From Chrysophaeum taylorii (Eukaryota > Sar > Pelagophyceae > Pelagomonadales > Pelagomonadaceae): a DNA stretch of 26,677 nucleotides. Positions 7,681 to 26,677 of this stretch are shown in pieces; the stretch's first letter is position 1, and the number at the start of each line of letters is the position of its first letter. The notes under the pieces are model-generated. The model saw only the letters and a list, made by a program, of their open reading frames with translations. It did not search any database and was not told where the DNA came from. A program made the position numbers and the translations under genes. The stretch is from the NCBI GenBank assembly GCA_029834535.1, contig JAQMWT010000582.1, positions 1-26,677 on the forward strand, in the 5' to 3' direction.

Positions 7681-7705
7681 CCTGATCCTTACCCTAAATC
7701 GAGGG

Positions 7706-7745
7706 ACAGACAAACAGACAGACAGACAGACAAACAAACATCTGT
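7706..7745. repeat. CAGA tetranucleotide microsatellite (unit B)
   Basis: Counterpart of the unit A microsatellite, with the same flanks (CTAAATCGAGGGACA before, CATCTGTCGA after) and a slightly different repeat number. Confidence 0.85.
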
Positions 7746-7766
7746 CGATTAGTAGTTAGGATTATT

Positions 7767-10700
7767 GTGGATTCAAAGCACATACGCGAGCGCGCTTGCA
7801 AGCCGCGCTCGCTGCGGGATTTGCGCGCGAGCAAGCCGCAGCTGTCGGGAACAGAGCCGCCGAAATATCTCGGGCCCGAGCTGTCGCTGCTCCTCGACGA
7901 CGAAGTCCTAGCACTGAAGTCGACAAAGCGTTCGGCAATTCCTTCCTGGTTTGCCCAGGATAAACGGAGATCTTGCTGTGTTCTAAAGGGAAGAAACGGT
8001 CGAATTCTTTGTGATCCTTGTTTTGGAGGTGCCTCGCACATGTTGCCATGCCTCTTGATGCCGCAAGTGTTGGGACATGACAAAAATGCTGCACCACGAT
8101 GTCCCAGCATGCCATGTAAACTTGTGCAGGCACTACTCAAATTTGGGTCGGATCAAGCGAGCGAGCATTTAGGTGGTAGTACCAACGAACATCTACCATT
8201 GGCGAATCAACGCCTGGCGTCGGTGAGATCACTTAAGACAAGCACCCTAATGACAGCCAGTGAACCGTTAGATCCGCACCGACAGCGGCCACTGGGACAG
8301 CATTTCGATACATTTACTGCCAGCGAAAACGGTCATCCGGAGTCTGCAGAAGAACGTAGTGGTGCAACGTTGTTGCCGTTTTCAGCCGCAAAGCTACACG
8401 TGGGTGTTCATTTTCTAGCACTGTATGACCATCCGCTCTTCGGTTCTGAGGAGCGGCTCTACATCCAGCTCCGACTTCTGTATGGCGATTATAGGAGGCT
8501 GGCTGAGGCGCAGACCATGGCCTACCTGCGACGGCGTCTGTGGCACCTCGCTGTGGCAGCAGCAGACCTGGCGAGTAAGTTCGACACAGATTGCGAAATG
8601 CAGTGGCATGCAGTGCACGTTGTGGGCGCCAGTTTGTTGGAGACTGCTAGTCTGCTAGAAGCCGAGGATTATTCAGTCACGGAACTCGAGGAGGCCCTTT
8701 ATACGACCTGGAAGCAGCTGAAGGGCTTAAGAAAGCATCAGGGGTTCATAGCTACGCCGGCCAAGCTCGTTGCCATCAACGTCTCAAACACGAAGCAGTT
8801 GGAATGGGCTAGGCAGAAGAGCTCTGGTGGCGAAATGGTTGACGTTGACTTTGTTGGGCCTTTGTTGGCTAAGGCATTTGGTTGCCCAGCTGCCGAGATG
8901 GTTATTTCAGCTTTGCAGGAAGCTACCCTGGCTACACGACGAGAATTATTTATTCTGAAGCTACGGTCAACAGTTGTGGTTACGCCAGATGATCAGGTGC
9001 CAATCGATGAGCTTGTCCGACGGCGGCGGCTTCGCCAACGACAGTGGTATGTCGCGCTTCGAGCCAACGGGCGGCGCGTGCTTGCGGCGACCGCTCGTGG
9101 ATTCGAGTGGCCAGCCCTCACAGTGCCTGTTGACCAGACTGTTTGGCTTCAAGCATTGAAGATAGGAGCAGTCGAACTTGCTGTCGAAGTTTGGCAGCGG
9201 CGACCCTACATGTGTAGCGACATCCATTGTGCCAAGACCCTGGTATCCATTCACAGCATAAGACAGCACAACGACAGATCATCGGAGCATGCACATGCAC
9301 CCTTATGGACCTGGCTTGACTTAAGCGTGACAAACGCAGGAAAGTGGAACGCTAACATTGAGCGAGATAAGGTCGAGGTCCGTGGTAAATTAGCCAGCCA
9401 AAGTAATGTCTCACAGCAGCATGTACCAAGTGCTGCGCCCTGGGAAGAAACCATGTTCGAAGGCAACCATCGGTACCCACGTCACGTCCGCCTCGCGGAC
9501 GTCACCCTGGCTGAGTTGCGATCGTCTGGGGTCAGACGCAGGCTGCTTGCCCAGTGTTTTAATGTTTTAGTAGTGTCGGAACCATATTCGCCACAGGTCG
9601 AACCGAATTGTACATCGGCAAATGACGACGGTTTCCGCACTCATCTCGATTGGTTGGACATCACGCTTGGCGCGACCCGCAGTAAGAAATTGGAACAGCT
9701 GCTGGGTTCTCCGCTTCATCCCGCTGCCATCTTACCCTGACAATAACTGGCCAAATAGCTCAGTTGCTCGCGGCTGCCTAAAGAAGTGCAATAAGTCAGG
9801 GGCTTTGGTAGGCGCGCAACTAGGTTCGATTATGTTGAGGGATGTGCTGCTTGACCCATTTGACCCACGAAATGAAGCCCTGTTCAGGTGCTGCTCGGTC
9901 GCAGAGATAGATTCTCGCTTGACTCACAATCGACCAAAATTTCGTGCTATTGATTTACAGGACAGGCTGGGGGCATGGACGTGTGAGACCACTACTGTCC
10001 GAACGTACGAGATTCTCATGCGGCAGCGGCTGATTCAGCTCCAGGCTTGGAAGGCTCATCCCACGAGGCCGATACTGACTGTCGAAGACAAAATAAACGA
10101 TATATTTGGCTGTATCCTTACTGACACCAACGCCAGCTGTGCCACCGAGCTGGTTTATGAAGACATACGAAATATTCTGCAGGCATCCTTGTCATCACTG
10201 TACGGCTTTGACACACGACTGCGGCTCGTGTTTTCTTGTGAGCGTGAGAGCAGTGCATTTGTCGAGAAAGAATTCTCGATGACGAAGCTACCTGCATCAG
10301 CTGTTGTGCATTGTCGCACATTTCTGCGGCGCGTTAAGTTCCATGGCCTTGATGCAGATACGGAGGGTGCGATGCAGCGCCGCCGACTGTTGAGGCTCAA
10401 GTCGCGGGTCCACGTGTCTTCCGTTGTGTCGCTCACTTCGAGTCGCTGTGTCGTGGTTCTTGTCACATCGGCCTCTTGGGTCACGCAAGTACCACGAATG
10501 CAAATGGGAAACTCACCTGCGCTTTCATTGTTGCGAGTAGCCGAGGAATCATCCGAGCAGGTCCGAAGTGCGCGCAGATTCTTTGTGACAGTGACGTTCC
10601 AAGAGCACACAAGGCGCACGAGTATTTCACGAGGTCCAGTGCCACATTGGAAAGAGACGCTCGTGTTACCCTTCATGCCGCCACACGATAGTTTCTCACC

Positions 10701-12522
10701 TGCTGCATTGTGGCAGGCGTGCGACCGTCTTCACCTCGCCCTCTTCTCCGAGGCGGCATTCGCAGGAGTGGACTATGCAAGTGGTGACGTCATCGATCAG
10801 CAATGGACAAGGCTGCGGAGGCTGTTCCTCGGCGACCTTGTCATCCCTATCGCTGCTATTAACTTTTGCCCTAGTGGTTCTATCGATGGAGCCTGCCAGC
10901 TCTATGAGCCTGCTGTTCACCTAGTTGTTGAAGGTGGTACCACGATAGCGACAGTCACCACAGAAATGCACGGTCCCAATGGTGACAATGCCCCTGAGTG
11001 GGTTGGGCACTCGGAGACGCTGCAAGTGTGGCGTGCTGCGACAGCTTGCAAGCCTCTGATGGATCTGGCATCAGGTTCATTCTACCTGCAGCTCTCAATC
11101 TTGCTGCAGCCAGCCGTGATGGGCCCGGAGCCCTCGCCTAGCACTGTCTCATACATCGAAGACGAACGCCTGGTGCACTTTGGGATGACCTGGATGCGCA
11201 ACGTGCATTTATACCTGGAGTCCCTCGAGACTTCTGCTCACCACACTGTTGACCCTCGAGTACGTGAGCGAAGGGTCCAAGCTTTGGTGACGAGTTCTTC
11301 TGGCGACGCTGTGTTGATCTGCCGTTATCTCCACCCGCAGGCACCGCCACCAGGCGTCGACACGCCTGCGAAGGCTGCAAGATACGTCTCCCTTATACCA
11401 CTCGTTGATGACTGGCGATTGACTGCTGGGCCCTATATCAACGTGTGGAGGGCGTCACACGATTTCTTACGTGTCGGTGCAGGTAACAGGGGGGATCATG
11501 GGGTCCTCCTTCATAATTACATTGCTTGGCTTCTGCTCCACAATCGGCAACCTTCAAACGATGTTTTGCCAGATGAGACATTCCTTATCATTGGTGCGGG
11601 CAGGCCCGAAGGCCGGACGGTCTATGTTGGGCAGAGGCCTCCGGCATCCCATGTGCCAAATAGCATCGTCGTCTGGAATCCGTGCACAGGCGAAGCTTTC
11701 TGCGCTGGGGACCGCCGGTGTCCACTTTTTGATGTTGGCTGCGTCATCACTCACGAGAATGTTTTTGCCAACCTTCAGCCATTCGCCACCCTTGGTGAGC
11801 TGAGTTTCGACTTCGCCAACTGTACCGAGTGGCGGCCCTTCTTTGAAAGTGTGAGCCTCTATACGCCAAGCTTACTGTCGCTACCCCCGGGTCGAAAAAC
11901 ACGAAGGCGCATGACACGACCACACCTGGACTCTCAGTTCGCTCATGCTGGTCATCGGCCTTTTCCCCGACCCTACCGTCTCACCTCCGTGCAAGTCGCC
12001 ATCCTCAACTACAAACCGCCAGATATCCTCAAAGCCAAGACCATCCAGGCCGATCTAACTGAAAGGATTGAGCAGGCTGTCCGTCGTTGGCGAGGTTGTC
12101 AACAGGCTCGACGTGTCCACACCCAGACTGCATTTTCTGTGGACTTCTCGCACCGCCTCAAGATGATTCTTCCTCAACTTGAACAAGCTGCCCAGGCACA
12201 TGCCCTGAGCAGAGAAAGACTTCAGAAACATCACGACAGCGTGCTCACCTTGAACCACCAAGCTTGGGATATCAATGCGCTCGCTTTCAATGTCCCTTGT
12301 TTCAAACCTGACATCATCCTTGACCGCCTGAAGATCACCAACATGCACGAGACTCCCCTTAGTAATGTACAGTTTGTTGTTGCTGTCTACGTGCGTGCAT
12401 ACCAGGTTTATGTCATCCCCACCTTTCTTCTTTACCTGGTGTAGGTGCATCCTCTTCACCATGGCGTATTTTCCGTCTGGGTTTACTACGGTACCATCCG
12501 CCCCCACGTCATGCTTGAATGA
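7767..12522 (+). CDS. CC2D2A: CC2D2A homologue, ciliary transition-zone protein (three exons)
   Basis: Homologue of CC2D2A, a scaffold of the MKS module at the ciliary transition zone that works with B9-domain and tectonic-type proteins to gate cilium entry. Exons as read: 7767-9681, 9764-12390 and 12445-12522, 1,539 codons in all (vertebrate proteins are about 1,600). Recognisable parts are an N-terminal C2-like domain (about 9045-9205, WYVALRANGRR to VELAVEVWQR); the central C2 domain (about 10430-10850, including FFVTVTFQEHTRR and GPVPHWKETLVLPF); a transglutaminase-like domain (about 11370-11870, with GAGRPEGRTVYVG and VWNPCTGEAF..CPLFDVGCVI); and the family C-terminus around VQFVVAVY. 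The usual catalytic Cys position is not obvious, which fits a non-enzymatic domain. The start is uncertain: 7767 is GTG, the frame is open from 7686, and the first in-frame ATG is 8040. The first roughly 120 codons do not resemble the family, and a 5' exon may be missing. Confidence 0.85.
9682..9763 (+). other. CC2D2A intron 1 (82 nt, phase 1)
   Basis: The donor is GTAAGA at 9682, a branch-like CTGAC lies at 9737-9741, and the acceptor is GCTCAG ending at 9763. Removing it joins the frame that otherwise stops at 9740 to the frame that runs to 12390. Family-like sequence continues after it (GCLKKCNKSG..LLDPFDPRNE). A one-base assembly error could mimic this, but donor, branch and acceptor are all present. 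Confidence 0.85.
12391..12444 (+). other. CC2D2A intron 2 (54 nt, phase 0)
   Basis: The donor is GTGCGT at 12391 and the acceptor GGTGTAG ends at 12444. The intron is a multiple of three and open until its own acceptor TAG, so unspliced reading stops exactly at the intron end. After removal the frame continues VHPLHHGVFSVWVYYGTIRP to a TGA at 12520-12522. This matches the conserved AVYxHPxxxxVxSVWxY ending of CC2D2A far better than the read-through does. Confidence 0.78.
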
Positions 12523-13954: not shown

Positions 13955-14245
13955 GTGGGTAGAGATAGAAAATTTGATTTAGGGTTAGTACCCCCCTATC
14001 CTAGGGTTAGCTCTCTTACTTCTAGCACATTTTAATTCAGAAAAACGCTGTGTTATTCACACCGTGCTGTCCTCGTTGTTAGAGCACAGAACGAGGGCAG
14101 ACTACAACTGCTCTCACTCTGCTGAAGGGTAACACAGCTGAAATTCCTTTTCTCTAGGTTATGGGCACCAGCCCCGGTATCAGCAGAGTACCAGGATTTC
14201 CAGTCGACTTTCGCTCTCTGACGTTCCTGACCAACCAAAACCAAG

Positions 14246-15262
14246 ATGCCAAGAAATCAAGAACTCCAAAAGGAGATAAAAGACCAAGAGGCAAGGCATC
14301 AAAAAGAGTTGACCAACATGCAAGCGCAAGCAGCCATCCAACAACAAGACATTCAAGACCTTCGCGACATGATCAGGCAAATGCAAGCTACGAACGTCGC
14401 AACACCACCTGCCGTCGCCGCTGCGACTGCTCCCCCCACAGCTCAACAAGACCCCAAGAACAAAGCCAACACCTTCAGTGACCCGCCAAGCTCTGTCCTC
14501 AAATGCATGGACGGCGCTCAAGTCACCCCCCAAATGCTCTCGTTTCGCGTTATGCTGTTGTTCGTTGAACATCTCATGCCCGAAACCGACATCACGCAAT
14601 ACTTCCTGCAAGGCTTCTACACGTGGGAATCCATCTTACGCGGATCTAACGATCTAGCAGACGCTCTCCTAAGCCACTGCATCAAGGAGTACGACAAGGA
14701 CCCCGACAACTATGCCACAGCCGGCAATACTCAAGATTTCCAAGGCCGCTTCGTCTACTACAAGGGCGTCTACCGCAAGTTCGGCAAACACTTCCTTGAA
14801 ACAGTATACGAACCAAAACTCCAAGAACTCAAAGACCAAGACAAAGATGCGACCGATACGACGAAAGGAATTTTGTATCCGATCACACAACTACATCTCC
14901 AAGGAAAAGAAGCCGACTTCATTGTGTACCTCCGCGAGACAGTGCACCCCCTCTTTCGCCGTTTCCTGCACGCCGGCAGCGACTCCGTCAAGCACCCGGC
15001 ATACGACGAGATAGATGCACTCGGATCCTCCCATCCGATAGGACTCGAATTCGTACTACAAGTCCGTCTCGCACTTGACAAGCACACGGGCCAGAACCAC
15101 GTCCATCATGCGCATTACGTCTTCAGTGCCTTTCTGGACACGCCGTTCAACCCGGAGATCCACGAACCCGCGCATTACATAGACTATATGCGCCACGTTC
15201 AACAACAGCTCCGTCAAAACACCGACGACCCTTCTCTCCAACTCAGCGACAATACGATATAA
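14246..15262 (+). CDS. ORF1, Gag-like structural protein of the methyltransferase retrotransposon
   Basis: 338 codons from an ATG preceded by an in-frame TGA. Residues 1-50 are a strongly charged coiled coil rich in Gln, Glu and Lys (QELQKEIKDQEARHQKEL), then a Pro/Ala/Thr linker (50-75), then a mainly helical region reminiscent of a capsid-like domain (FRVMLLFVEHLMPETDI..YFLQGFYTWESIL). No CCHC zinc knuckle is visible. Position upstream of a retropepsin-like pol and the coiled coil plus helical body suggest Gag. The assignment rests on context, not on a sequence motif. The stop at 15260-15262 lies 50 nt before the next frame opens. Confidence 0.7.
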   Translation: MPRNQELQKEIKDQEARHQKELTNMQAQAAIQQQDIQDLRDMIRQMQATNVATPPAVAAATAPPTAQQDPKNKANTFSDPPSSVLKCMDGAQVTPQMLSFRVMLLFVEHLMPETDITQYFLQGFYTWESILRGSNDLADALLSHCIKEYDKDPDNYATAGNTQDFQGRFVYYKGVYRKFGKHFLETVYEPKLQELKDQDKDATDTTKGILYPITQLHLQGKEADFIVYLRETVHPLFRRFLHAGSDSVKHPAYDEIDALGSSHPIGLEFVLQVRLALDKHTGQNHVHHAHYVFSAFLDTPFNPEIHEPAHYIDYMRHVQQQLRQNTDDPSLQLSDNTI

Positions 15263-15312: not shown

Positions 15313-16407
15313 CCCTGCGCCCCAACCCATATCAAAGGTTTCGCACGTCATGCAAACTGTCTTCGTACCTCCAACGACTCACTGTTACTCGACGAAGACA
15401 AAGAAGCGATAAACAATTTGCCCAAGCTGATTGCCCGCATCACGGTTATCTCCACATTTGAGCGCAACTTTTGGGCTCACCTAAAGCCTCACCCCACCCT
15501 GAATTTCAAGCCGTTGCGATTCGTCACTGACTTCGGTCGTCTGCCGACCAAAGACAAAGACAATCCCCGTTTTCGCTCCCGCCGTCATGGCCTCCACCTC
15601 GCCGAAGACGACGACGACACCATCCCCTCTGAAGATGATGTCCCTCCGGATCCTGATGAAGCATCCCCTGAAGACACCGACCCTGTTGCCGTTTTTCTCA
15701 CGGAAGCCAACCTCGATCCAAATGACGACACCGATCTCATCCAATCTCTTCACGCTTACCGCAAGAAGCAACTCTCCCGCCACCAGAAGAAAACCCCACC
15801 GAAAAAGCCTCCCAATCCTCGTTCACCGTCGTACTATGACATCAACGACAGCCCTAAACCCAAACCCACCCCTGTCACCCCAACAAAGAACAAACACCAC
15901 CCCCGTGCTTCTCCTGTCACCCCAGACAAACGCGAGCACCCGCACCTCCGCAAGGTCACTTTTCCCACTCAAACGCACCCCCCAAAGCCATCCACTCCTG
16001 ACCAACGGTTCAAGGTTCCCCTCCGTGATGTTCGTCGCAAGCTTCCGATCATCCGGAACCTTAGTCAAGCCGGCCGCCAACACACCTCCAACTCGGATCG
16101 CATGACCAAGCTCATCAACCTCATCACCACTATCTCCGACGAGATACTCCTCTCCGAGGCTGATTCCGACGCCGCCGAGTTTCTTCCGGTGTTATCATCC
16201 GATCCCCAGGATGATCCACCAGATGAGGGCGCAGCCGACGACGCCGATGACCAAGGCCACCTCGGTTTTTACGATGATCACGGACAGCTATGCCTTTACG
16301 ACGATCAAATCCCCGAAATGGAAGATGAAGACGACTCCGCCGAAGACTACGCACAACGTCACAACGACTATATGCATGCTCTCCGTCAGAGCCAGCTTTT
16401 TCGATGA
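15313..16407 (+). CDS. ORF2, disordered acidic/proline-rich retrotransposon protein without an ATG
   Basis: Frame open from 15313 to the TGA at 16405-16407. No ATG occurs before SDRMTKL near residue 262, so it must be joined to ORF1 by frameshift, readthrough or splicing, or the copy has decayed here. The protein is low-complexity: an acidic patch (EDDDDTIPSEDD), Lys/Pro/His-rich middle (KKTPPKKPPNPRSP, repeated VTP.K), a conserved-looking KVPLRDVRRKLPIIRNL patch, and an acidic C-terminus (DDQIPEMEDEDDSAED). It could be a Gag C-terminal or linker domain. No enzyme motif is seen. Its stop overlaps the pol ATG (ATGA at 16404-16407). Confidence 0.6.
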   Translation, partial: PCAPTHIKGFARHANCLRTSNDSLLLDEDKEAINNLPKLIARITVISTFERNFWAHLKPHPTLNFKPLRFVTDFGRLPTKDKDNPRFRSRRHGLHLAEDDDDTIPSEDDVPPDPDEASPEDTDPVAVFLTEANLDPNDDTDLIQSLHAYRKKQLSRHQKKTPPKKPPNPRSPSYYDINDSPKPKPTPVTPTKNKHHPRASPVTPDKREHPHLRKVTFPTQTHPPKPSTPDQRFKVPLRDVRRKLPIIRNLSQAGRQHTSNSDRMTKLINLITTISDEILLSEADSDAAEFLPVLSSDPQDDPPDEGAADDADDQGHLGFYDDHGQLCLYDDQIPEMEDEDDSAEDYAQRHNDYMHALRQSQLFR

Positions 16408-19400
16408 TGGTTGCCGACGACGCCTGTGCCGCCAACCAAACTCTACTAAATCAGGCACCAAGCCTCACGATGAAACATTTCCCAACATCATCGATACTTT
16501 CACCCAGAGTCGCAGAATTTCTTTGTGCCACTTACACTACAGGAAAGGCACCCACCAAGACTAACTCTCTACACGAATGCAATGGACCCGGCACTGAAAT
16601 GTCCTTAATTGACGGTGGTGCATCTTTTTGCTTCACTCGCACTATACAACACTTTGTTCCCGAGTCCATATGTAGGATTCCCGAACATACCATCCGCATG
16701 GGCAGAGGCACATTAACCAGCCATTTCATTGGTGTCAAGCCTCTGTATTTACAGGCTGCAGGTCTCTCCTCACAGGATATTAAAGATTCCACAGGCTACG
16801 CACTATACTTAGTCTTCTTGGTCGTCCCGCACTTCAGGCCAGGTCTACAGGTTATAGCGACCTCTCAACTGAAAGCTCTGAACGTACAGGCAACAGACCC
16901 CCCGCTGCCGCACGAACCATACTTGTATGAACTTCTGACCAACTCCACGTCAGGTCCTCTCGACTACAGAGAGCTTCTAGGCACGACCGAAGTAATTACC
17001 GCCAATCGCCAAACCAATGGTCTCTTATCTCTGCTATCTCATCCAAAGCAAACATTCCGCGCTGTGATCAGTTTCCACACCGGCACGAAAATGTCCCTCA
17101 AGGATGAACTTACCAACATCACTAAGAAAGTAGCAATAACGCGCTCGCAATCTCACCTCCTCGATTTTGCCAAACTGCAAAACCACTCTGCTTTCCTGAC
17201 GGACTTAATAGGACTGCCGCGTACTTTCGTCCAATATGCATTCATTGGTACAGCGGATCTCTCTGTGCAAGCACAGCCCCCTCCGCTACAAACAGCCATT
17301 ATTGCAGGTGGACTTCACCAAGAGGGTTTCGCCTCTTTTCGCAAACGCTTCGACAAACGCATCATTGTCGTCGCCGCCTGTGAAATAAACCCCATTATGC
17401 GCGCCCGCGCGCAGCAACTGTTCCCGCACGCTCTGCATTATAAGGATCTCAGAAAGCTCACTGCCGCATTGCAAGCCGGCAAAATGCGACTACCTCAACT
17501 TGACCTGGCTGTCTTCACCTTGCCTTGTCAACACCTGAGCGTAATGAAAGACTACGACGGCTATGCCACCCCAGCAACTGCCGACCTCTTCGTCAAAGAA
17601 CAAATTCGATTTGTTCGTTGCACGCTCCCGATATACATCACTGTCGAGAATGTACCACCAAACCCGCAAACCTACCACGAGTACGCCCAGCTCGCAAAGT
17701 GCTATCAAAGCATGGGTTACTTCCGACACTCCGGTGTCTACAATGCCTCCGCCTTTGGCGACGTCATAAGCAAGAACCGCTACCTCGCTGTCTTCGCACG
17801 ACACCCGCTAAACGGCTACAACCTCGAGAAAACCGCTTCTCCCTGGTTAATATCTCCTCCGAGCATGGTCCCCCTCCTGGACCCAAGTCACACTATCCCC
17901 GACGATCTCTGGATAGCCAACCCCGCTCTTCGCGGCACAGTGACCCGCTCCACCTTGGATTATTATCAGCACAAAGCCATTTTCTCATATGCACCCGTCA
18001 ATGCTGCCCAACTCTCGATTTCCGAGAATGCACGCATCTGCCAAATGCTTGCACGCCTGAAGAAGCCCTTCATGGATCTCGGCCTGGACGCCGACGGCAC
18101 CCCCTATGCCTCGATGACCACCATCCAACATCTCTTGGTATTTACACTGCTGCACAATCATTTGTCCCAGCACCCTACTCTCGCCGCCTGGAACACACTT
18201 CGATGCTTTCACGCCTCCGAGTCACAATGTGCTTACCACCTGGATGGAGCCATCCCCGGCTCTGCCGCCACCGCCGTCGCATGTGGCTACTTCCTGCGCG
18301 CATCCCTCACCTTGCATTCACGCCCCCCTCAGATATTGGACTGCTCACACCAACCCGCAGTCTTCTCCCCAACGCACACCTTCTCCCTGGATGTTCTCAA
18401 GGGCACCGCCTTTCTGGTCGTCGCCTACACCAACTCCTTGGGGGCCGCTCACAGCTGCTCGCACCCCTCCACGTGGGTCCACAACATGAATCGCTCGCAT
18501 CCCGCCTTTGCTGCGATCGACCCACAAGGGCGGATAATCCTCGATGACCCCACGGGACTCATAATGTCCGAAGCACGCCCCACCTACGCGGACTATGTTG
18601 GCCACATCGGCGACACACTCCAGAAAAGCACCAAGTGCTACTCGGCCACCGGCTCGTACCCAACCAACGCGAGCTACTCCAACGCACTAGTGCTGATCTC
18701 TCCCGAACACATCGGATACGCGACTCTCAACGAAATCGCAAAGTTTGGATACCACTCTGACCCGGAACCGCTTCGCTTGTTCCGACAGCGCCCGCCGTAC
18801 TTCACGTTTAAGGCACTTGCCAACGCCGTCCCGCACCACATGCTGCAGGCAAAGTACAGCGCTGTCCTCGCACTCCACGAATCGCATCACCACGTGAATC
18901 TTCACATCGAATGGGCAACCATACGCAACGGCATCCCCAGTCCCGGAGACATCGCTCAGGTTGCAGAATTCTTCTTGAACATCTCCAGCCGTCTCTTAGC
19001 AGTGGAGGACCTCCACCTCACCTCCCTCTTCAATGCTGTTGCAGATGCCCACCATGCTGCGATCCGCAAGCCACGCACTTCGAAAAACCTCGAGACGCTA
19101 CTTGCCGAGGCCACAGTCGCTAAAGTCAGAATCGACAAGCGACCCAGCCCCCCTAGCGCTTCGACTGCAGCTCTGCCCCCCTCTCAAAAGCCCGGCACCA
19201 CTCAGCACGCAAAAAGAGTGCTTTTGGTCACTCGCTGGCACCGCATACACCACCAGCAACCCGAGATTCTTCGCCGCACGATTGCCGCTAACGTAACGAA
19301 CCTCCGCCCAGGTGATGATCGGTATCTGCAAGACTGCAGCGAATGCAAGCGCTGTCAATCGCATGTCAGCTTCAGTCATAAGAACGCTTCCTGGTCACAG

Positions 19401-19700
19401 GATGAACTGGCCTACGCTCCTGGCCAACATCTCCACATGGACGTATCCTACCCGAGCATCAGTAAATGCTATGGTGGATTCCGCTACACAATGCACTTCG
19501 TGTGTGTTATTTCGGCACACAAAAGGGTATACTTCCTGAGGAAACTGACGCGGAGGACGCTCTTGCTGGCATCCTCTAGGCTTGGCGACAGCCGCATCCG
19601 GGGGGGGGGGGCGGGGGCGAGAACACGAAAAGAACGCCCCCCCAGCACGAAAGCTTGGCGCTGGGGAGTCGATATCCCCTGCCCTAGGCCTCCCCTATAG
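16404..19700 (+). CDS. Pol, 5' part: retropepsin-like, C5-DNA methyltransferase, pre-integrase and integrase start
   Basis: Frame starts at the ATG overlapping the ORF2 stop and is open from 16329. True element sequence ends at 19578; the last 40 codons come from an inserted TIR element. Residues 66-77 read MSLIDGGASFCF, a retropepsin-like D-x-G-A site with Gly for the usual Ser/Thr, followed by a copia-style VVPHFRPGLQVIATSQL (about 140-157). Residues about 297-820 are a C5 methyltransferase (separate entry). Residues about 941-990 form the pre-integrase zinc finger: H946, H950, C978, C981. D1013 (HMDVSYP) is the first integrase catalytic Asp, followed by GGFRYTMHFV..KRVYFLRK. A frame offset lies near 19530, just before the insertion. 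Type copia is inferred from the integrase style. Confidence 0.85.
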   Translation: MMVADDACAANQTLLNQAPSLTMKHFPTSSILSPRVAEFLCATYTTGKAPTKTNSLHECNGPGTEMSLIDGGASFCFTRTIQHFVPESICRIPEHTIRMGRGTLTSHFIGVKPLYLQAAGLSSQDIKDSTGYALYLVFLVVPHFRPGLQVIATSQLKALNVQATDPPLPHEPYLYELLTNSTSGPLDYRELLGTTEVITANRQTNGLLSLLSHPKQTFRAVISFHTGTKMSLKDELTNITKKVAITRSQSHLLDFAKLQNHSAFLTDLIGLPRTFVQYAFIGTADLSVQAQPPPLQTAIIAGGLHQEGFASFRKRFDKRIIVVAACEINPIMRARAQQLFPHALHYKDLRKLTAALQAGKMRLPQLDLAVFTLPCQHLSVMKDYDGYATPATADLFVKEQIRFVRCTLPIYITVENVPPNPQTYHEYAQLAKCYQSMGYFRHSGVYNASAFGDVISKNRYLAVFARHPLNGYNLEKTASPWLISPPSMVPLLDPSHTIPDDLWIANPALRGTVTRSTLDYYQHKAIFSYAPVNAAQLSISENARICQMLARLKKPFMDLGLDADGTPYASMTTIQHLLVFTLLHNHLSQHPTLAAWNTLRCFHASESQCAYHLDGAIPGSAATAVACGYFLRASLTLHSRPPQILDCSHQPAVFSPTHTFSLDVLKGTAFLVVAYTNSLGAAHSCSHPSTWVHNMNRSHPAFAAIDPQGRIILDDPTGLIMSEARPTYADYVGHIGDTLQKSTKCYSATGSYPTNASYSNALVLISPEHIGYATLNEIAKFGYHSDPEPLRLFRQRPPYFTFKALANAVPHHMLQAKYSAVLALHESHHHVNLHIEWATIRNGIPSPGDIAQVAEFFLNISSRLLAVEDLHLTSLFNAVADAHHAAIRKPRTSKNLETLLAEATVAKVRIDKRPSPPSASTAALPPSQKPGTTQHAKRVLLVTRWHRIHHQQPEILRRTIAANVTNLRPGDDRYLQDCSECKRCQSHVSFSHKNASWSQDELAYAPGQHLHMDVSYPSISKCYGGFRYTMHFVCVISAHKRVYFLRKLTRRTLLLASSRLGDSRIRGGGAGARTRKERPPSTKAWRWGVDIPCPRPPL
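17289..18860 (+). other. C5 cytosine-DNA methyltransferase domain inside the retrotransposon pol
   Basis: All main motifs of the m5C methyltransferase family are readable in order (residues of the frame starting 16404): motif I AIIAGGLHQEGF (298-309, SAM binding); motif II CEINP with E327; motif IV LPCQHLS with catalytic C375; motif VI VENVPP (E415); motif VIII YNASAFGDVISKNRYLAVFA (446-465, R459); motif IX-like ISPEHIGYATLNEIAKFGY (765-783); motif X KALANAVPHHMLQA (803-816). The catalytic Cys, ENV Glu and motif VIII Arg are intact, and there are no stops or frameshifts across the domain. Between VIII and IX lie about 300 residues, much longer than a minimal target-recognition domain. Substrate sequence context (CG or other) cannot be read from this. 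Likely acts on DNA in the nucleus, perhaps on the element's own copies. Confidence 0.88.
18222..18440 (+). other. HxD-containing segment, possible degenerate 2OG-dioxygenase-like fold
   Basis: Residues about 607-680 of pol read SQCAYHLDGAIPG, then AVACGYFLRASLTL, then AVFSPTHTFSLDVLKGTAFLVVAYTN. This order (HxD at 612-614, a G-F/Y strand, then FSP..H......G...LVAYT) resembles double-stranded beta-helix Fe(II)/2-oxoglutarate dioxygenases, and domains I recall in dinoflagellate polyproteins. The distal His position is shifted and the Arg expected near the last strand is not seen, so activity is doubtful. It may simply be part of the methyltransferase target-recognition region. Confidence 0.3.
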
Positions 19701-20416
19701 CGCGGAGGGATCGCCCCCCTAGGACGACGGGCACCGCAGCACCTGAGTGGCTCTACAATGTAGGCTACAGTTTGGCAGGGAAATTGGGTTTCGAGGGGGG
19801 TCTTTGGCGACGCTGAATGGGTCGCAAGGAATGTGGCGGCCTCATGGTGCGTCTCAGAGGTCCATGAGGTAGTCGCGGAGGTTCTCCTCTGGAGCTGGGC
19901 TCTCATCCTCCTCCTCATGGAGGGCGGGCTCGTCGACGGAGTCTGGCTCGTCGGCCTCGCCATGTTCGCGGGGGGCGGTTCGTTGTCGTCATCATCGTCG
20001 TCTTGAGGACAGGGCGCACAATATCCCGACAAGTTTTACGGCTCGGAGTCGCGCGTATGGCTAAGCCACTGTGATTTTCCTGCAGCCGCGCCTCCTCTTG
20101 TCCGGTTCTTTTAACGCCTATGCCCGCGACGAGCGCGAGGCTAGCAGAGGCGCTCCCTCCCGGCCGAGTCGCCGGCACCCAGTCCGTGGCCGTCCGTAAT
20201 TCTATAGCTCTGCTGACCACCTGGGCGCTCGGCAAGCATTCGAGGCCTCTTCTAGAGTGCGTGCGCGGTGGTCAGACAACCCCCTAGCACGAAACTTTCG
20301 TGCTAGGAGGTCGCAGACTCCCCCCCGGGCACAAAACTTTAGCGCTGGGGGGTGGCGGCCCCTCGCCCAGCAAAACGCTGTTCTCGCGCCCCCTCGGATG
20401 CGGCTGTCGCCAAGCC
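19579..20416. mobile_element. 838-bp TIR DNA transposon inserted in the integrase
   Basis: Perfect 21-bp terminal inverted repeats, 19579-19599 (starting GGCTTGGCGACAGCC) and 20396-20416 (ending GGCTGTCGCCAAGCC), are flanked by the 3-bp direct repeat CTA (19576-19578 and 20417-20419). The 5' TIR is followed by a 12-base G-run. The interior is GC-rich with palindromic modules. On the minus strand an acidic stretch with a stop after RDYLMDL (about 19960-19855) could be the tail of a lost transposase; that is a weak guess. A 3-bp duplication fits PIF/Harbinger or CACTA-type superfamilies, but the CTA site and termini do not settle which. Downstream open reading from 20352 uses a GTG inside this element and is not a real start. 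Confidence 0.88.
20283..20307. repeat. Near-perfect palindrome inside the TIR element
   Basis: CCTAGCACGAAA, one C, then TTTCGTGCTAGG: a 12-bp stem with a one-base centre. Related imperfect modules are CCCAGCACGAAAGC..GGCGCTGGG at 19641-19664 and CCCGGGCACAAAACTTTAGCGCTGGG near 20324-20350. Confidence 0.85.
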
Positions 20417-20419
20417 CTA

Positions 20420-21473
20420 CGTGGTCAACGTGATTAAGGTCGAATTCGATGTAAGTGTGAAAATCATCTCATCTGATGCCTTTTCCACATTCCGCTCCGA
20501 AGCCTTCCACCCGCTCAAGGTGCAACTTGGTATCCAGTTTCAAATCATTGGTCGCCATCTACGCCAGCGGCACTTAGCGGAAGACATCATCGAAGAAAAT
20601 ACTCGAGGCACTGTCGTTCGCCTCCTTAATCTGCGCAGCGTAGGCATTAAAGGAAAGCCAATTTTCGCCGAGTATTACCACCCGTTTGCTCTGCTGCATA
20701 AGATCCAAGCAGACAATCAGCGCTCTCATGGATTGCCCTCGCGCACTCACATGCCCTGCACCGTCCCCAGGCGCATTATGTCATCTACGGCGCCACTCTT
20801 GAAGCTCCTCCCCTTTGGCGAACCTGTCACATTCGTATACCCGCGAAGCAAAAAACTGGAACCCGCCAGCGTCTCCGCCTCTTATTTCCATAGCAACAAC
20901 TATCTACCGAATCTCCCTGGTACGGACCGATTTATCCGCGATGTTCACAGCTCTATCCTGCTTGTACATCAAGGGCGATATGGGAAAATCGTCACCTCGA
21001 ACGACTTCCACGTTGATGCGGACATGGTAGTCAATCGCAACAAGGAAATTGAGCGGATTAAAGCACAGGCGCAGTTTCCAGCAGAAGCACGGCAAGAGGA
21101 CCCGCTCCCAGCTATAAGCGACCAGTCAATGCCGGAACTTAGACCGGAGTCGCAAAATGAGGGCGAGACTCATGATAACAACCATGATGACGAACCCGAT
21201 GACGAAGACAAGAATAAGGAACCAGATCAAACCTCTGCTACTGGTCCAAGTCCCGTCAGCGACGAGACACCTGAACAGGACTTTTCGTTCCTCAACAGGC
21301 CACCTCCGCCGGATGGAAGCATTCCGATGCCCAAGCGAAAAGATCGCTTAGAGGTTGTTCTCGACGATTCAGGTTTTACTCCAGTCTTTGTGCATCGCAA
21401 CCAGAGTGACAAACTCAAGGCAAATTCAAGGACGAGCGCGGATTCCGCATTCCCAAAGATCAACTATACATAG
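20420..21473 (+). pseudogene. Pol, 3' part: integrase second half and post-integrase linker
   Basis: Continuation of the integrase after the TIR element. D at 20475-20477 (SSDAFSTF, equivalent of the DNGxEF site) and E at 20592-20597 (IIEENTRG) supply the second and third catalytic acids of the DDE triad, about 38 residues apart. YGKIVTSNDFHVDADM (about 20976-21024) corresponds to the copia post-integrase SRDVxFDE-type patch. Then comes an acidic linker (DDEPDDEDKNKEPD) and a basic patch. The frame stops at 21471-21473, but a neighbouring frame reads on from about 21425, so a one-base loss there is likely. Confidence 0.75.
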
Positions 21474-22079
21474 TGAAATGTGCTGACGATGGACAACTAT
21501 TCACCAGACGCATTATCGCATCAGAGTATGGTCGCAACTGCAAATACCAGCAGGAGCAACCCACGGCTCGCGCCACAGCCAACATGTCCAGCAACGTTGA
21601 TGTTTCTTATCAGTGTCAGCGCTCTGCATCAAGGCCATGCCGCCTGCATCGCATCCGATCTTAACCTTAGAAGGGACGCTAAGCCACCAGATGATGTCCC
21701 GATAGGATGCCTCCTCGCAAATACCACCCAAGACTATGGTATCATGGGCGGCACTGCACTGGATCTGCAGAGAGAAACCGACGCAGAACTCCTGCACGTC
21801 AACTTCCCAAAGAAGCCATACCATTCGTCTGTTCTGGTCGATCACCTGGACAACGGCAATTCTGTTCTCGAGAATTATGTGTGCCATGACGAATTGTCAC
21901 CGGCAGAGTACTATGCGCGTCAATGGTGCAGAGCATTGGCAAGCAGTGGTAAGTCACCTGGGAAACCATCCCGTCTCATCATGAACGTCTGGAAGCATTT
22001 AATTCGGGGAATGAAAAGGTATGTTCCCTGTATCCTCAGAAAACGACAGGCGGCATCTAGAACTACACGAGAAAGGTAA
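21425..22079 (+). pseudogene. Pol, frameshifted tail before the missing RT
   Basis: Coding-like sequence continues first in the frame through KCADDGQLFTRRIIASEYGR (21474-21533) and then, after a second shift somewhere in 21600-21670, in the frame through GIMGGTALDLQRETDAELLHVNF and SPAEYYARQWCRALASSGK to a stop at 22077-22079. No RT motif is reached. The end AAAAGGTATGTT near 22015-22026 looks like a splice donor, but that may be chance. The assignment rests on continuity with the integrase frame. Confidence 0.5.
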
Positions 22080-23570
22080 AGTGTGTAGTGCTACATACCT
22101 CGGGGCGCGCTAGACCATGATGATGAGCGTAGGCACAAATCAGAGGACTATTTGATTGTGTATGAAGGAAGAATAAGGGTAAGGAAGAGATCACGTTCTC
22201 AGCGGACGGATAAGGGTAAGATGCAGCAGATTTCTCTGCACCCCCTCGAGATGTCTTAAGCGCAAGGTGCGACTGTAGAGCATCTCTTGAGAAAGATGAT
22301 GATGAAGAAAAAGGAAGGAATACAGTCTTGATGGTCACAGAGGTCACATACGAAGCATCAAGAGTATAGAAGGGTCTTAGGACTTGGACTTGGACTTTGT
22401 GGAGCTGAGAGTCGATTTGACCCTTTTTTTTTGAACAGAACATTAAGAAACACAGATACAACCGAGAGTGTGTTAGGATTATCAATCATCGTCAGCTTCT
22501 GCTGTAAGGTGGTGAACACCAATAGCTGAATGATGTGGTGCCAAGAGAAGGGTGAGTGCAAGTAGAGCATTCAGTATGGATGGCGACATAGAATCTAGTT
22601 GAAAGGTGTCCAGTTGGTTTCCCAAAAAGGTTGGACTTGGCGAACGAAGATATAAGAGTCTTCAGATTCACATGAGAGCGGACGGAATGCTCTGAAGCAT
22701 GAGAGCAACTTGTCACGTAGATGAAGGAGGTGATCGTCCGGGGAGGAGTGGTTGGTAGCATGTTGGTCATGAGCGGTGAGTGTTAAGCGAGACAACAGCT
22801 CTGTGATCTTGTACAGTGTATAAGTAACACGTGGGTGTTGGCTGTAGGAGGGAAGAGCCGGTTCTCCACGGAGGTGATTGAAGCAACGGCAGCCTCGGTA
22901 ATATAGATTCGAAGAGTTTCCTGGAGTTGGTCGACTTGTTGGCACAAGACGTCGAAATCAGCAAGCGAAGCAGAAGGCGTAGGTAACGATGGCGATGATA
23001 TCTCCAGAGTAGTGTCTAGCGTGGAGTGTGAGTAGTTTAACGACGTTTCGGTCAACGTTAAAAAAAAAGGGATGCAGGAAGCCTTAATGTTCTGCCTGAG
23101 CATAAGTGTGGCCGAACATTACATGCCGGCGTGATAGCGGTTCTGTATCATCAGAGGATGATGCGTAGTCGTCAAGATGTTGTACAAGCGATCGAGCAAC
23201 AGTAGTAATCAAATGCTGAATGGATGGCTTGTATAGCCTGAGCTGTGCGACTCTGTGTTCGAACGCGAGTCACAAGTAAACTGATCGGTGTTGTGATAAT
23301 GGGGATGTGACCATTCTTCTTATGGTCGTCCGTGTTGAGGTGACTCCGCACTTCAGTGGGGAGTTCACGAGGTGTTTGTGCCTTGGAACTGTACGTGGTC
23401 GAGACTAGGAAAGTCGGTTGTCTACGATCATTTAGGCACTGCGTAAGAAAAAAAGGAAAGCGACAAAATGAGACGTTCGCGTTTGGGGCATCTGTAGCAG
23501 CCAATAGAAGCAATAGCAGGAGCAGCTTCCCAAAGTATAGTAATGGGTAAGCGCATGGATATGAATGTGG
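22080..23570. other. Non-coding or decayed end of the minus-strand copia element
   Basis: No intact gene. Only short minus-strand frames occur; the one starting at 23103 (SLNYSHSTLDTT..PSASLADFDVLCQQVDQLQETL) resembles the segment upstream of RT in the minus element (SASLADLEEYLLVCTEF and TATSLNYNSP), with the two motifs in the opposite order. The region may be the 3' untranslated part, LTR or a decayed second gag. I could not find a TG..CA LTR pair. Confidence 0.4.
23035..23054 (+). repeat. 20-bp dispersed motif, copy 1
   Basis: AGTTTAACGACGTTTCGGTC. Near-identical 20-mers occur at 23848-23867 and 25745-25764, all in the same orientation within the minus-strand element. Confidence 0.75.
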
Positions 23571-23717: not shown

Positions 23718-23847
23718 GGTTCGTTGCTTTTGCGACAACCTGGGGGAAGGTTCGGCCGTGGAGAGCGAGAAAGGACTGTCCTTCAACCGACTAGTGAGAT
23801 GCCGCCGCGTACAACAATTTGTGGCAAAAGAAGGTAAGGCCAGGGCT

Positions 23848-23867
23848 AGTTTAACGACGTTGCGGTC
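23848..23867 (+). repeat. 20-bp dispersed motif, copy 2
   Basis: AGTTTAACGACGTTGCGGTC, 18 bp beyond the RNase H stop (in minus-strand direction). One mismatch to copy 1 and one to copy 3. Confidence 0.75.
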
Positions 23868-23884
23868 ACTAGAGTTAGGCATCT

Positions 23885-24465
23885 TCAATCCTGTAAAGGC
23901 TTGTCGTCAGAAGCATGATGCATACCGAGTAGAGAACGAAAAGTGGAGAACTCAGCAGCAAGTGGCTTTGTAAAACCATCCGCCACGTTCAGCTTGCCGG
24001 GAACATGATGGACTCGTATTTTCTGTAGCGAGATGTACTCACGGATTTTAAACCATCTGGTCGACAGTGCCTTGGATCGAGAGGACCCATCTGGGTTATT
24101 AGAGGTGTGAACAGCGGCAGCATTGTCAGACAAGAGAGGCTTCTGATGAAGCGCATATCTTCAGCAATTGGGTTGTCATTGTCATCGAAGTCAACAGGGT
24201 CAGCGGTGTTCTCACCATTAGCATTGTTGACGTAGAAGGTGGGGTTGACGACAAAGGAGAGTTCCAACAGCAGCTTGCGTAGCCAAACAGCTTCATCAGC
24301 ACAAATACTGAGGGCAATCAACTCAGCTTCGTGAGTTGAGCAGGAGACAATCGGTTGAAGTTTGCTTTTCCAACCAATAAGGCAGTTGAAAAGATAGAAG
24401 ACAAACCCGGTGGTAGATTTCCTATCTTCCTGTGCTAAGGAAGGGGCGTTGTCAGCGTCAACCAT
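23885..24465 (-). pseudogene. Copia RNase H, frameshifted
   Basis: Minus strand. The part from 24465 reads MVDADNAPSLAQEDRKSTTGFVF..KLQPIVSCSTHEAELIALS, the copia RNase H core with the DAD and HEAEL acids. After a frame change near 24130 it continues SDNAAAVHTSNNPDGSSRSKALSTRWFKIREYIS..VHHVPGKLNVADGFTKPL to the stop at 23885. A first frame offset separates it from RT (RT stops at 24471), so at least two shifts break the RT-RNase H polypeptide. Confidence 0.85.
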
Positions 24466-24470
24466 GGCAA

Positions 24471-26069
24471 CTAAGGGTCAAACTGTCCAGTAGATACATC
24501 CTGCGGTTGGTAGTCGACCACAGTGGATAGATCAATTCGATTAGCGGAGACAGTGCGAAGGTGAGCTTCAATGGCATTACCTTTAGGATGGAACCAGAGG
24601 CGAAGTGAGCGGTTTTCCGGCTTCTTGAGGTAGCGAAGCAAATGCTCTAGCATTTGGACGTGAACATACGTGGGTGCATGCATACCACGCGAACATCTGC
24701 CCAAGGCTTGCGAGAAGTCAGGTCTGCAGGCAACTTGCATGAACACCAGCTTGCCAAGGAGGGTGGCAAAGTGCGAATTGATGTACAACTCTGTTTCAGA
24801 GCTGGGAGTGCCATCTTTATACTTGAAGGACGATGACATAGGATATTTAAGCGGGGTCAGTTGCTGCAAGACTGGGTGATCAGCGAAGAGTTCATCCAGC
24901 TTGGCTTGCACATCCAGAGAAATGGAACCGTCAGATGTGCGACACACACGCATGCCTAGGAGGGTATGGACAGGTTCAAACTGCTCTACAGCATACCGTT
25001 TGTGGAGGGCATCCTGTAATTCAGTACGAAGAGGGTCGTCATTGGACACAATAACAATGTCGTCTACAGACAGACTGCATACGACGAACTTAGCATGTGC
25101 GGATACTCGAGCATATAGGCAAGAGTCCGAATGCAGGCGTTTGTAGCCAAGGCTACGGAAGAAGCCGTCTATCTCTTTGTTCCAAAGAGATGGTGATTGC
25201 CGAAGTCCATAAAGTGACTTCTGCAGTTTTGGTATACGTCGGCCCTTGTACTTAGCGTCATCGGGGTCGATAAGCTTGATGCCGTCTGGTAGGTGAACAT
25301 ATACGTTGGCATCAATGTCAGACTGAACGAAGGCGTTCGGGACGTCTGCATGGTAGACAGGCAATTGCTTGTATGCGGCAATAGCTAGTAGTACCCGGAT
25401 TGCGGTCATGGTGGCCATGGGGCTGAAGGTGCCAAAGAAACCGGCGCCAAGAGATGCTAGGAAGCCACGTAGTACGAGGCGAGCCTTGTGCTTAACGTAT
25501 TTGCCTGCAGAGTCTGTCTTCAGCACCATCTTGCTGTCAATAGGACGAGAGACACCGTCGGGTAAGGAAAGTTTGAAGCAGCCAAAGCGGATAATGTCGT
25601 GGAGTTCCTTGGCGATGGCCTTGAGGTAGGCGTGCCTGTTTTCAGGCGACAAACCGTGGAGGCACTTAAGTTTATATTCGTCAATGGAAACGTCAGCTTC
25701 TTGGACCTGATATTCGTCAGGACCAACAATGGCTGGTGAATTATAGTTTAGCGACGTTGCGGTCGAGGCAGTGTGCGCAACTTCGGGATAAGCGGAAACT
25801 GCGTCAGTAGTAGTAGGGGCAGATTCCAGTTGAATATGGATAGTAGGGTCGGTGTGTAAGACCTGGGTGATAAACTCTGTACAGACCAGAAGGTATTCCT
25901 CCAAGTCAGCCAGAGATGCAGAAGTAGCGCCAAACTCGGAGGAGTTGTGATCAATAAAGCTGGTCGGCGCCAGGTACGTAAGTGCATATCGTAAGGAAGA
26001 AGTGCCGAAGGCAGCAGCGTGTTCAGTGAAAAAAAAATAGCTGAGGAATGGGTCACGCAGGTGAACCAT
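24471..26069 (-). CDS. Copia reverse transcriptase (RVT_2 type)
   Basis: 532 codons from the ATG at 26069. Residues 1-170 are a linker with no known domain. The RT follows: KMVLKTDSAGKYVKHKARLVLRG, TFSPMATMTAIRVLLAIAAYKQLPVYHADVPNAF (D242), VYVHLPDGIKL, LQKSLYGLRQSPSLWNKEID, and the catalytic SVDDIVIVSND at 334-344. The usual Tyr of YVDD is Ser here. LGKLVFMQVACRPDFSQALGRCSRGM precedes a missing join to RNase H. No integrase lies upstream; the preceding frame is gag-like. Probably part of an inactive copy. Confidence 0.88.
   Translation of the reverse strand: MVHLRDPFLSYFFFTEHAAAFGTSSLRYALTYLAPTSFIDHNSSEFGATSASLADLEEYLLVCTEFITQVLHTDPTIHIQLESAPTTTDAVSAYPEVAHTASTATSLNYNSPAIVGPDEYQVQEADVSIDEYKLKCLHGLSPENRHAYLKAIAKELHDIIRFGCFKLSLPDGVSRPIDSKMVLKTDSAGKYVKHKARLVLRGFLASLGAGFFGTFSPMATMTAIRVLLAIAAYKQLPVYHADVPNAFVQSDIDANVYVHLPDGIKLIDPDDAKYKGRRIPKLQKSLYGLRQSPSLWNKEIDGFFRSLGYKRLHSDSCLYARVSAHAKFVVCSLSVDDIVIVSNDDPLRTELQDALHKRYAVEQFEPVHTLLGMRVCRTSDGSISLDVQAKLDELFADHPVLQQLTPLKYPMSSSFKYKDGTPSSETELYINSHFATLLGKLVFMQVACRPDFSQALGRCSRGMHAPTYVHVQMLEHLLRYLKKPENRSLRLWFHPKGNAIEAHLRTVSANRIDLSTVVDYQPQDVSTGQFDP
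25745..25764 (+). repeat. 20-bp dispersed motif, copy 3
   Basis: AGTTTAGCGACGTTGCGGTC, located within the linker of the RT frame (it encodes part of TATSLNY on the minus strand). Confidence 0.75.
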
Positions 26070-26677
26070 CAGCAGTTAAAAAGGTTGCAGCTGGGATGCT
26101 GGATGCGCACTTGGCGTGGGCGAAGTAACCATCGACGTGCGGGTAGCGGGCAAGTAAGTCAGTGCGCAACGGGAGAAGAAGACGAGCTAACAACGCATGT
26201 TCCCCCTCTGAGCAGATAGCAGACCAGAGGATACCACCACTGAGATGAAGGGCGGAGAGGGCGGGAGACTTGAACGTAAGAAAGTGGTGGCGAAGATCCC
26301 AGCGGAAATCGGCGAGTTTGCCACCAGCGGCTTTGTAAGCACCAATAGTAGACGCTTGTAACCGGGTTCGGATAGTTTTCATAGAAGTGGCCGTGCGTTT
26401 GGAACCTGGGACAAGAATGAGGTCATCTTGTGCAAAAAGGTCTTTGTAAGAAGGAAGCAAGGGCGGCGGTGACATAGAGCCAGAATCGTCGGCGAGAGTG
26501 TTAGAAGAGGGAGAAGAGGCAGGAGTAGGGGACGAAGAAGGAGCTGAAGGAGGTGGGGAGTGCCCCTCTGAGGATGAGGAGTCCGTGTCCCCCTCTGAAT
26601 GACATGGTCTTGATAGCGGTGTGGGGTGTGAGCGAGAAAGGCGCGGGAGGAGCATGATGCGGAGGAGCAAGTCAGGA
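26053..26677 (-). CDS. Gag-like protein preceding RT (runs off the window)
   Basis: Minus-strand frame open to the window edge, first ATG at 26655, stop at 26053-26055. The N-terminal part is Ser/Pro-rich (EGDTDSSSSEGHSPPPSAPSSSP). The C-terminal part is helical with basic patches (SKRTATSMKTIRTRLQASTIGAYKAAGGKLADFRWDLRHHF..LLLPLRTDLLARYPHVDGYF). It overlaps the RT ATG by 17 nt in the +1 frame. No zinc knuckle, protease or integrase motif is visible. Gag is the best guess from position; a pol linker is the alternative. Confidence 0.5.
   Translation of the reverse strand, partial: PDLLLRIMLLPRLSRSHPTPLSRPCHSEGDTDSSSSEGHSPPPSAPSSSPTPASSPSSNTLADDSGSMSPPPLLPSYKDLFAQDDLILVPGSKRTATSMKTIRTRLQASTIGAYKAAGGKLADFRWDLRHHFLTFKSPALSALHLSGGILWSAICSEGEHALLARLLLPLRTDLLARYPHVDGYFAHAKCASSIPAATFLTADGSPA

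Follow-up and report, generated by a model that had tools for sequence, protein, structure and literature searches.

Cytosine methylation is a normal means by which hosts silence transposons. Retrotransposons that themselves encode a DNA methyltransferase (DNMT) have been described as SymbioLINE-Dnmt, SymbioDIRS-Dnmt3 and KnitGypsy-Dnmt3 (de Mendoza 2018, PMC5890265). According to the portions of that paper available to us, the captures in Symbiodinium concern LINE and DIRS elements and the capture in Klebsormidium a Gypsy element, two SymbioDIRS enzymes were active in yeast, and the abundant Copia elements of Symbiodinium lack any DNMT domain. The original prediction for the locus described here had pointed to captures in dinoflagellate and charophyte retrotransposons. 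Such captures are indeed published, but the carriers named in these portions are LINE, DIRS and Gypsy elements, with the Symbiodinium Copia elements devoid of a DNMT. The available text of a later paper (Mol Biol Evol 2025, PMC12344493) includes a sentence that places some members of DNMT3 inside LTR Copia and DIRS elements; this sentence refers to de Mendoza 2018 and concerns DNMT3 in streptophytes and dinoflagellates. Its mention of Copia may be a slip, the cited LTR case being Gypsy. Apart from that sentence, the open-licence literature searched yielded no account of a Copia clade that bears a DNMT.

The window, i.e. the whole stretch of DNA analysed (26,677 nt of a contig from Chrysophaeum taylorii), contains a family-1 (F1) Copia element with a DNMT domain inside its Pol, and the 3' part of a second Copia element:

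13960..14156, + strand: 5' LTR of the F1 Copia element, matching the LTR of copy L013; its ends are TAGAGA...TTCTCTA instead of TG...CA
14231..15259, + strand: gag-like ORF, 343 aa from stop to stop, matching ten other fetched copies
15313..16404, + strand: second ORF of the gag region, proline-rich and acidic (from the ORF listing, Pfam scan and copy comparison)
16329..19697, + strand: Pol ORF fragment with protease, DNMT and the start of the integrase, 1123 codons in a single stop-free frame
16602..16634, + strand: retropepsin-like site SLIDGGASFCF, of putative function from its sequence; LDSGA at the corresponding part of the related Pol proteins P0003 and P0004
17289..18860, + strand: C5-cytosine DNMT domain, with motifs I-VIII, a stretch of about 300 aa, and motifs IX and X
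17295-17330, + strand: motif I, IIAGGLHQEGF, degenerate
17379-17390, + strand: motif II
17520..17540, + strand: motif IV, LPCQHLS, with the catalytic Cys
17643..17660, + strand: motif VI, VENVPP, with the catalytic Glu
17766..17792, + strand: motif VIII, ISKNRYLAV, second Arg kept
18708-18749, + strand: motif IX (HIGYATLNEIAKFG)
18813-18845, + strand: motif X (ALANAVPHHML)
19170..19565, + strand: N-terminal part of the integrase, matching residues 1-132 of the F1 integrase query
19579..20416, no strand assigned: 838-bp insert splitting the integrase; its terminal inverted repeats measure 21 bp, and the duplicated target is CTA
20417..21926, + strand: remaining integrase and integrase-RT linker; the match to relatives ends at 21926, before the RT
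21927..22895, no strand assigned: another repeat, adjoining or inserted into the F1 element, with two matches to L063 (90% and 83%)
23805..26677, - strand: 3' part of a family-2 (F2) Copia element with linker, RT and downstream region, 95.6% identical to L052 and 96.4% to L051

The F1 copy of the window spans from the LTR at 13960-14156 to 21926, and its own RT is absent from the rest of the window. Integrase matches were found at 19170-19565 and 20400-20807, on either side of the 838-bp insert. The gag-like ORF (14231..15259) matched no Pfam family above the cut-off. The central claim of the original prediction, a DNMT embedded in a copia-type polyprotein between a retropepsin-like site and the integrase in one stop-free frame, was borne out. 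The motifs were correctly placed and ordered (I, II, IV, VI, VIII, IX, X), and the catalytic residues are kept while the integrase of the same copy is broken by the insert, as had been stated.

The homologous ORF of copy L009 is 1952 aa long and holds the protease site, DNMT, integrase and RVT_2 in this order in one frame (RVT_2 at 1686-1933, E 1.6e-38; rve at 1016-1110, weak with 17 bits vs a cut-off of 32.6). Copy L013, about 9.1 kb long with inserts included, has an LTR pair of 194 and 197 bp (96.4% identical) that starts with TAGAGA, ends with T(T/C)TCTA and is flanked on the outside by the 5-bp repeat GTCAT. The integrase preceding the RT and the RVT_2 match in L009, as well as the LTRs with target duplication in L013, place the element in Ty1/Copia. 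The L013 LTRs do not have TG...CA ends, which are usual in Ty1/Copia and not strict. The F2 element on the minus strand (23805..26677) gave an RVT_2 match with E 7.4e-41.

Other parts of the window were inspected as well. The repeat at 21927-22895 recurs beside the broken part of the family-3 (F3) copy L063 (4648-5677) and may be an element with frequent insertions into Copia. GC-rich repeats lie within positions 1-5000, and parts of them (near 586-766 and 4843-5015) occur again in L013, L014, L015 and L017. Two overlapping frames at 7698-12444 (+ strand) matched a CEP76 peptidase-like domain strongly (E 7.5e-23); their match to the N-terminal C2 domain of CC2D2A was weak (E 1.2e-4, below the cut-off). 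They probably represent a ciliary CC2D2A-type gene, in which case the host is likely to bear flagella. The best PDB matches of an LHC gene of the genome were VCPI-6, PCPI-8 and FCP8, which mark the host as an alga.

The profile search against the DNA_methylase family that had been proposed along with the original prediction gave a significant match for the window Pol ORF (PF00145; E 2.9e-8, 34 bits vs a cut-off of 22) and E 2e-9 for the sub-piece 17199-17819. PF00145 was detected at E up to 1 in 10 of the 13 members of set A6. The domain also matched PHROGs phrog_116 (DNA methyltransferase; E 8.1e-12), and NCBIfam returned no family for the Pol ORF (16329-19697) up to E 10. With hhalign, residues 30-260 of the F1 alignment A1 matched a set of m5C enzymes with E 1.3e-11 and a score of 80.6 (maximum of the shuffles 23.1; 0/200 as good), the set comprising nine annotated phage/plasmid enzymes chosen among the tblastn hits of the F1 DNMT domain itself, plus the host gene L019, which we read from its sequence as Dnmt2-like. 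The annotated adenine-type methylase H33 (L062) was fetched and left out of A3. An AlphaFold prediction over 564 aa was not usable (mean pLDDT 28); a model of the N-half, made with F2/F3 rows, was usable, albeit modest. All 50 PDB matches listed for this model (Foldseek, VIA-align) were of the m5C type, so that the F1 N-half is predicted to adopt the m5C methyltransferase fold. The top matches were DNMT1, MET1, HhaI and HaeIII, rows with Z within 1 being tied, and DNMT2 structures were also among the matches. It is confirmed that 17289-18860 encodes a C5-cytosine methyltransferase domain inside the Copia Pol.

The catalytic signature of m5C enzymes consists of the PC of motif IV, the E of motif VI and the R of motif VIII; the consensus of the SAM-binding motif I is DLFxGxGG. 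The F1 domain of the window has this PC, E and R signature, and the catalytic Cys, Glu and Arg were unchanged in 17/17 very divergent aligned sequences. In A1, which comprises 14 of 20 F1 copies (L010, L016, L024, L032 and L033 were excluded for stops, L028 for a deletion), the Glu is missing in three rows (a deletion in L027, a frameshift in L029 and L031). Motif IV reads PCQ in F1 and PCT in F2/F3, vs PCN in Dnmt3. Among the 17 aligned sequences, motif VI is EM in 14, EN in two and EI in one, and the acidic residue of motif II is Glu in 16 and Asp in the remaining one. Compared with the motif I consensus, F1 lacks the D, the F and the final GG; IIAGGLHQEGF of F1 aligns there with LLCSGLSTPAF of F2, both degenerate, and AIIAGGLHQ-GF is invariant in all 14 F1 rows. 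Motif VIII of F1 is ISKNR in place of QxRxR, with only the second Arg retained. Motif IX lies about 300 residues downstream of motif VIII in F1, and motifs IX-X alone scored weakly against bacterial IX-X.

Across 11 copies, the VIII-IX stretch of F1 (window ~17811-18638) averaged 94% identity per column; it matched no Pfam family up to E 10 and contains a conserved HLD...H...R pattern. A TET/JBP dioxygenase, considered on account of the HxD...H...R pattern, found no support in view of the missing Pfam match; PF12851 had no match in the genome in a search run without a positive control. Over 19 copies, the median dS was 0.22 in this stretch vs 0.56 in motifs I-VIII, hinting at recombination between subfamilies.

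The 70.8-Mb genome has 102 clustered DNMT-domain loci, mostly of family 1, a count that unites 94 domain-search rows with 20 further PF00145 rows (partly without family assignment) and excludes the host genes L019 and L020. It may contain duplicate contigs in pairs such as C10/C297 and, with 82 of 790 candidates scored, may also be too low. The position of the domain is fixed: a DNMT was listed within 2.5 kb upstream at 84 of 137 clustered integrase loci, most commonly with a gap of 310 nt. Fourteen of the 53 other integrase loci were probed, of which ten had more than half of the domain and three a C-terminal piece (L043, L046, L050); L044, a disrupted copy, had only the last residues. Copies lacking the domain between protease and integrase, which according to the original prediction would have spoken against it, were not encountered, as none of the inspected copies had the protease joined directly to the integrase.

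A dN/dS test had also been suggested, and it revealed purifying selection on the domain. The 11 clean copies out of 19 gave median values of 0.154 for motifs I-VIII, 0.220 for the middle and 0.142 for motifs IX-X; the whole-domain median was 0.275 with broken copies included (19 copies). Elsewhere in Pol, the medians were 0.127 for the protease (10 copies), 0.108 for the integrase (10 copies) and 0.192 for the RT (8 copies). Motifs I-VIII of the window copy compared with other copies had a dN/dS of 0.130 at a dS of 0.81, close to the values of the protease and integrase. Selection on the DNMT domain is family-wide. The intact domain of the window copy follows the rule of the family and is no sign of a new insertion. 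The proposal of a recent insertion, drawn from the intactness of the domain in an otherwise dead copy, was not supported. No 3' LTR of the window copy was found in the contig, and the copy could thus not be dated by its LTRs. The nearest of 18 compared copies was L017, at a synonymous distance of 0.44; closer than this (95% amino-acid identity over 176 residues) was the broken copy L023/L036 of contig C64, which lay outside that comparison.

Two further families of the genome carry the domain. F2, the family of the minus-strand Copia element in the window (L051, L052), and F3 (L063, L064) are 52% identical in the region compared, and the sampled longer F2 copies carry their own divergent DNMT. 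The order upstream of the integrase is LLCSG(L/M)S, (P/S)PCT, EMTPP and GDYQ(S/A)RERW, followed by a motif IX-like stretch and a motif X-like stretch with NA(L/I)PAG. Pfam called no DNMT in the two full F2/F3 ORFs scanned, and phrog_116 matched weakly (E 0.54). In hhalign comparisons of F2/F3 with m5C enzymes, 0/200 shuffles were as good. The N-halves of F1 and F2/F3 did not match each other directly beyond chance (12/200 shuffles as good); the C-halves did (0/200).

A protein search with the RT region of F1 returned 1474 proteins, of which the best 120 were examined. The relatives were Pol proteins on short contigs from ENA and JGI records, probably environmental in origin and eukaryotic. Among the 120 matches listed, PF00145 was found in P0004, P0005, P0013 and P0029. 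Profiles of motifs I-VIII and IX-X, with P0003-P0005 among the seeds, detected the DNMT domain in 15 of these 120 proteins; the DNMT of P0029, called by Pfam with E 2.1e-11, was outside their reach. All 16 of these Pol proteins had the order DNMT, integrase, RT. Seven clade members without a DNMT begin too far 3' and therefore could not show one: in five, fewer than 90 residues precede the integrase match, and the other two have no integrase match and start too near the RT. Protein searches with the DNMT domain itself, as a single sequence and as a profile, gave no hit, a misleading result because candidates were taken by length and shared words. No relative was found in a scan of viral_contigs with A1.

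In an RT tree built from 52 of the 124 available rows, chosen by us, 27 rows of the DNMT-Copia clade were split from 25 other Copia with a support of 100/100. No DNMT was found in these 25 rows. Within the clade, 19 rows bear a DNMT label and eight, including P0029, do not; because of these eight, the label needs four changes on the tree. The DNMT has diverged together with the RT (Mantel r 0.88 between DNMT and RT distances over 15 rows, P0029 excluded; 0/2000 permutations as high). The simplest reading would be a single ancient capture, after which the domain was inherited along with the element. The DNMT of P0029 (residues 234-541), with PPCQPFS, is closer to the canonical form and may stem from a second capture or represent a relative that evolves slowly.

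The genome also encodes a host ORF of 2086 aa (L020/L068, contig C621) with PF00145 (E 7.9e-18) followed by SNF2 (E 9.4e-14), a layout that we interpret as DNMT5-like; DNMT5 in algae is described in the available parts of PMC9998398 and PMC12344493. The copies of F1 and F2 displayed no clear signature of CpG decay, C/T differences being no higher at CpG than at CpT (F1: CpG 0.125, CpT 0.128, CpC 0.099, CpA 0.075; F2: CpG 0.083, CpT 0.090). The observed/expected ratio of CpG was ~1.0 in F1 and 0.91, 1.40 and 1.51 in three host genes. Lasting CpG methylation of F1 copies is not clearly indicated by these sequences. Another sequence context, transient marking, an RNA target or inactivity may account for the missing decay.

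We consider it reasonably probable that a Ty1/Copia lineage captured a DNMT into Pol once, long ago, and has kept it as a core enzyme, with the cDNA or the insertion of the element itself as its probable target. A C5-cytosine DNMT would have entered, most simply a single time, between the protease and integrase and been retained as part of the core set of Pol. The domain might be released by the element protease or act within Pol. It would stay with the cDNA and would probably methylate cytosines in the newly made cDNA or at the insertion site. The host DNMT5-like protein could then maintain the mark written by the element. The likely benefit would be self-marking, that is, the hiding or taming of new copies.

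It appears rather unlikely that the domain, though a true methyltransferase fold, acts like Dnmt2 on RNA, such as the element RNA or the tRNA primer. The DNMT2 structures among the fold matches and the unclear CpG decay would suit such a target, as would PCQ and EN(V) of F1, which also fit Dnmt2-type enzymes, but the top structural matches are DNA enzymes, a weak argument given the ties in Z. We give little credence to a catalytically dead domain kept for structure or nucleic-acid binding within Pol: degenerate motifs I and VIII in F1 and the prevalence of EM over EN in motif VI (14/17) are in line with it, yet the catalytic Cys, Glu and Arg did not change across the very divergent sequences, nor did motif I across the F1 rows. 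Equally doubtful are independent captures at the same spot by F1 and the F2/F3 group (or P0029). The N-halves that match no better than chance, and the more canonical P0029 missed by the clade profiles, would agree with separate origins; the matching C-halves, other Pol proteins that bridge F1 and F2/F3, and the correlated DNMT and RT distances (P0029 excluded) argue for a common one. A one-off methyltransferase insertion unique to the window copy, or a frame in which the motifs match by chance, has a negligible probability, being refuted by the 102 clustered loci, a dN/dS near 0.15, and the profile and fold matches.

With a confidence barely below that given to the single ancient capture itself, we regard the Copia clade as old and widespread, occurring in this alga and in further eukaryotes that are probably environmental, with the DNMT as the fourth core enzyme of Pol next to protease, integrase and RT. 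The enzyme would have been gained in a single capture, maintained by selection across deep divergence, and would allow the elements to write their own methylation. The presence of a methylating enzyme as a standard and selected part of Pol suggests that these elements may set methylation marks on their own. The advantage that a methylase brings to its element becomes open to comparative tests, and the clade supplies many divergent DNMT enzymes for assay.

In fold and in motifs IV, VI, IX and X, the Copia DNMT resembles bacterial and phage m5C enzymes (PF00145; HhaI, HaeIII). It differs from HhaI/HaeIII-type enzymes in its altered motifs I and VIII, the usual EM of motif VI, the long VIII-IX stretch of F1 and its embedding in Pol. 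The elements share with plant, fungal and green-algal Ty1/Copia the protease-integrase-RT order, RVT_2, short LTRs and the 5-bp target duplication (L013), but the latter group had no DNMT in the 25 rows compared, and its RT lies across the 100/100 branch. The sentence in PMC12344493 likewise names Copia as a DNMT carrier. Like SymbioLINE, SymbioDIRS and KnitGypsy as presented in the available portions of PMC5890265, the elements encode a DNMT that is present in many copies and under purifying selection, and self-methylation of reverse-transcribed DNA was proposed there, as it is here for the F1 Copia. Unlike these LINE, DIRS (Dnmt3) and Gypsy (Dnmt3) cases, the present elements are Ty1/Copia; their motif IV reads PCQ or PCT, and their DNMT is common to several divergent families. 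Whereas the earlier captures are separate LINE, DIRS and Gypsy cases, the DNMT described here seems to have been inherited in common by an entire Copia clade.
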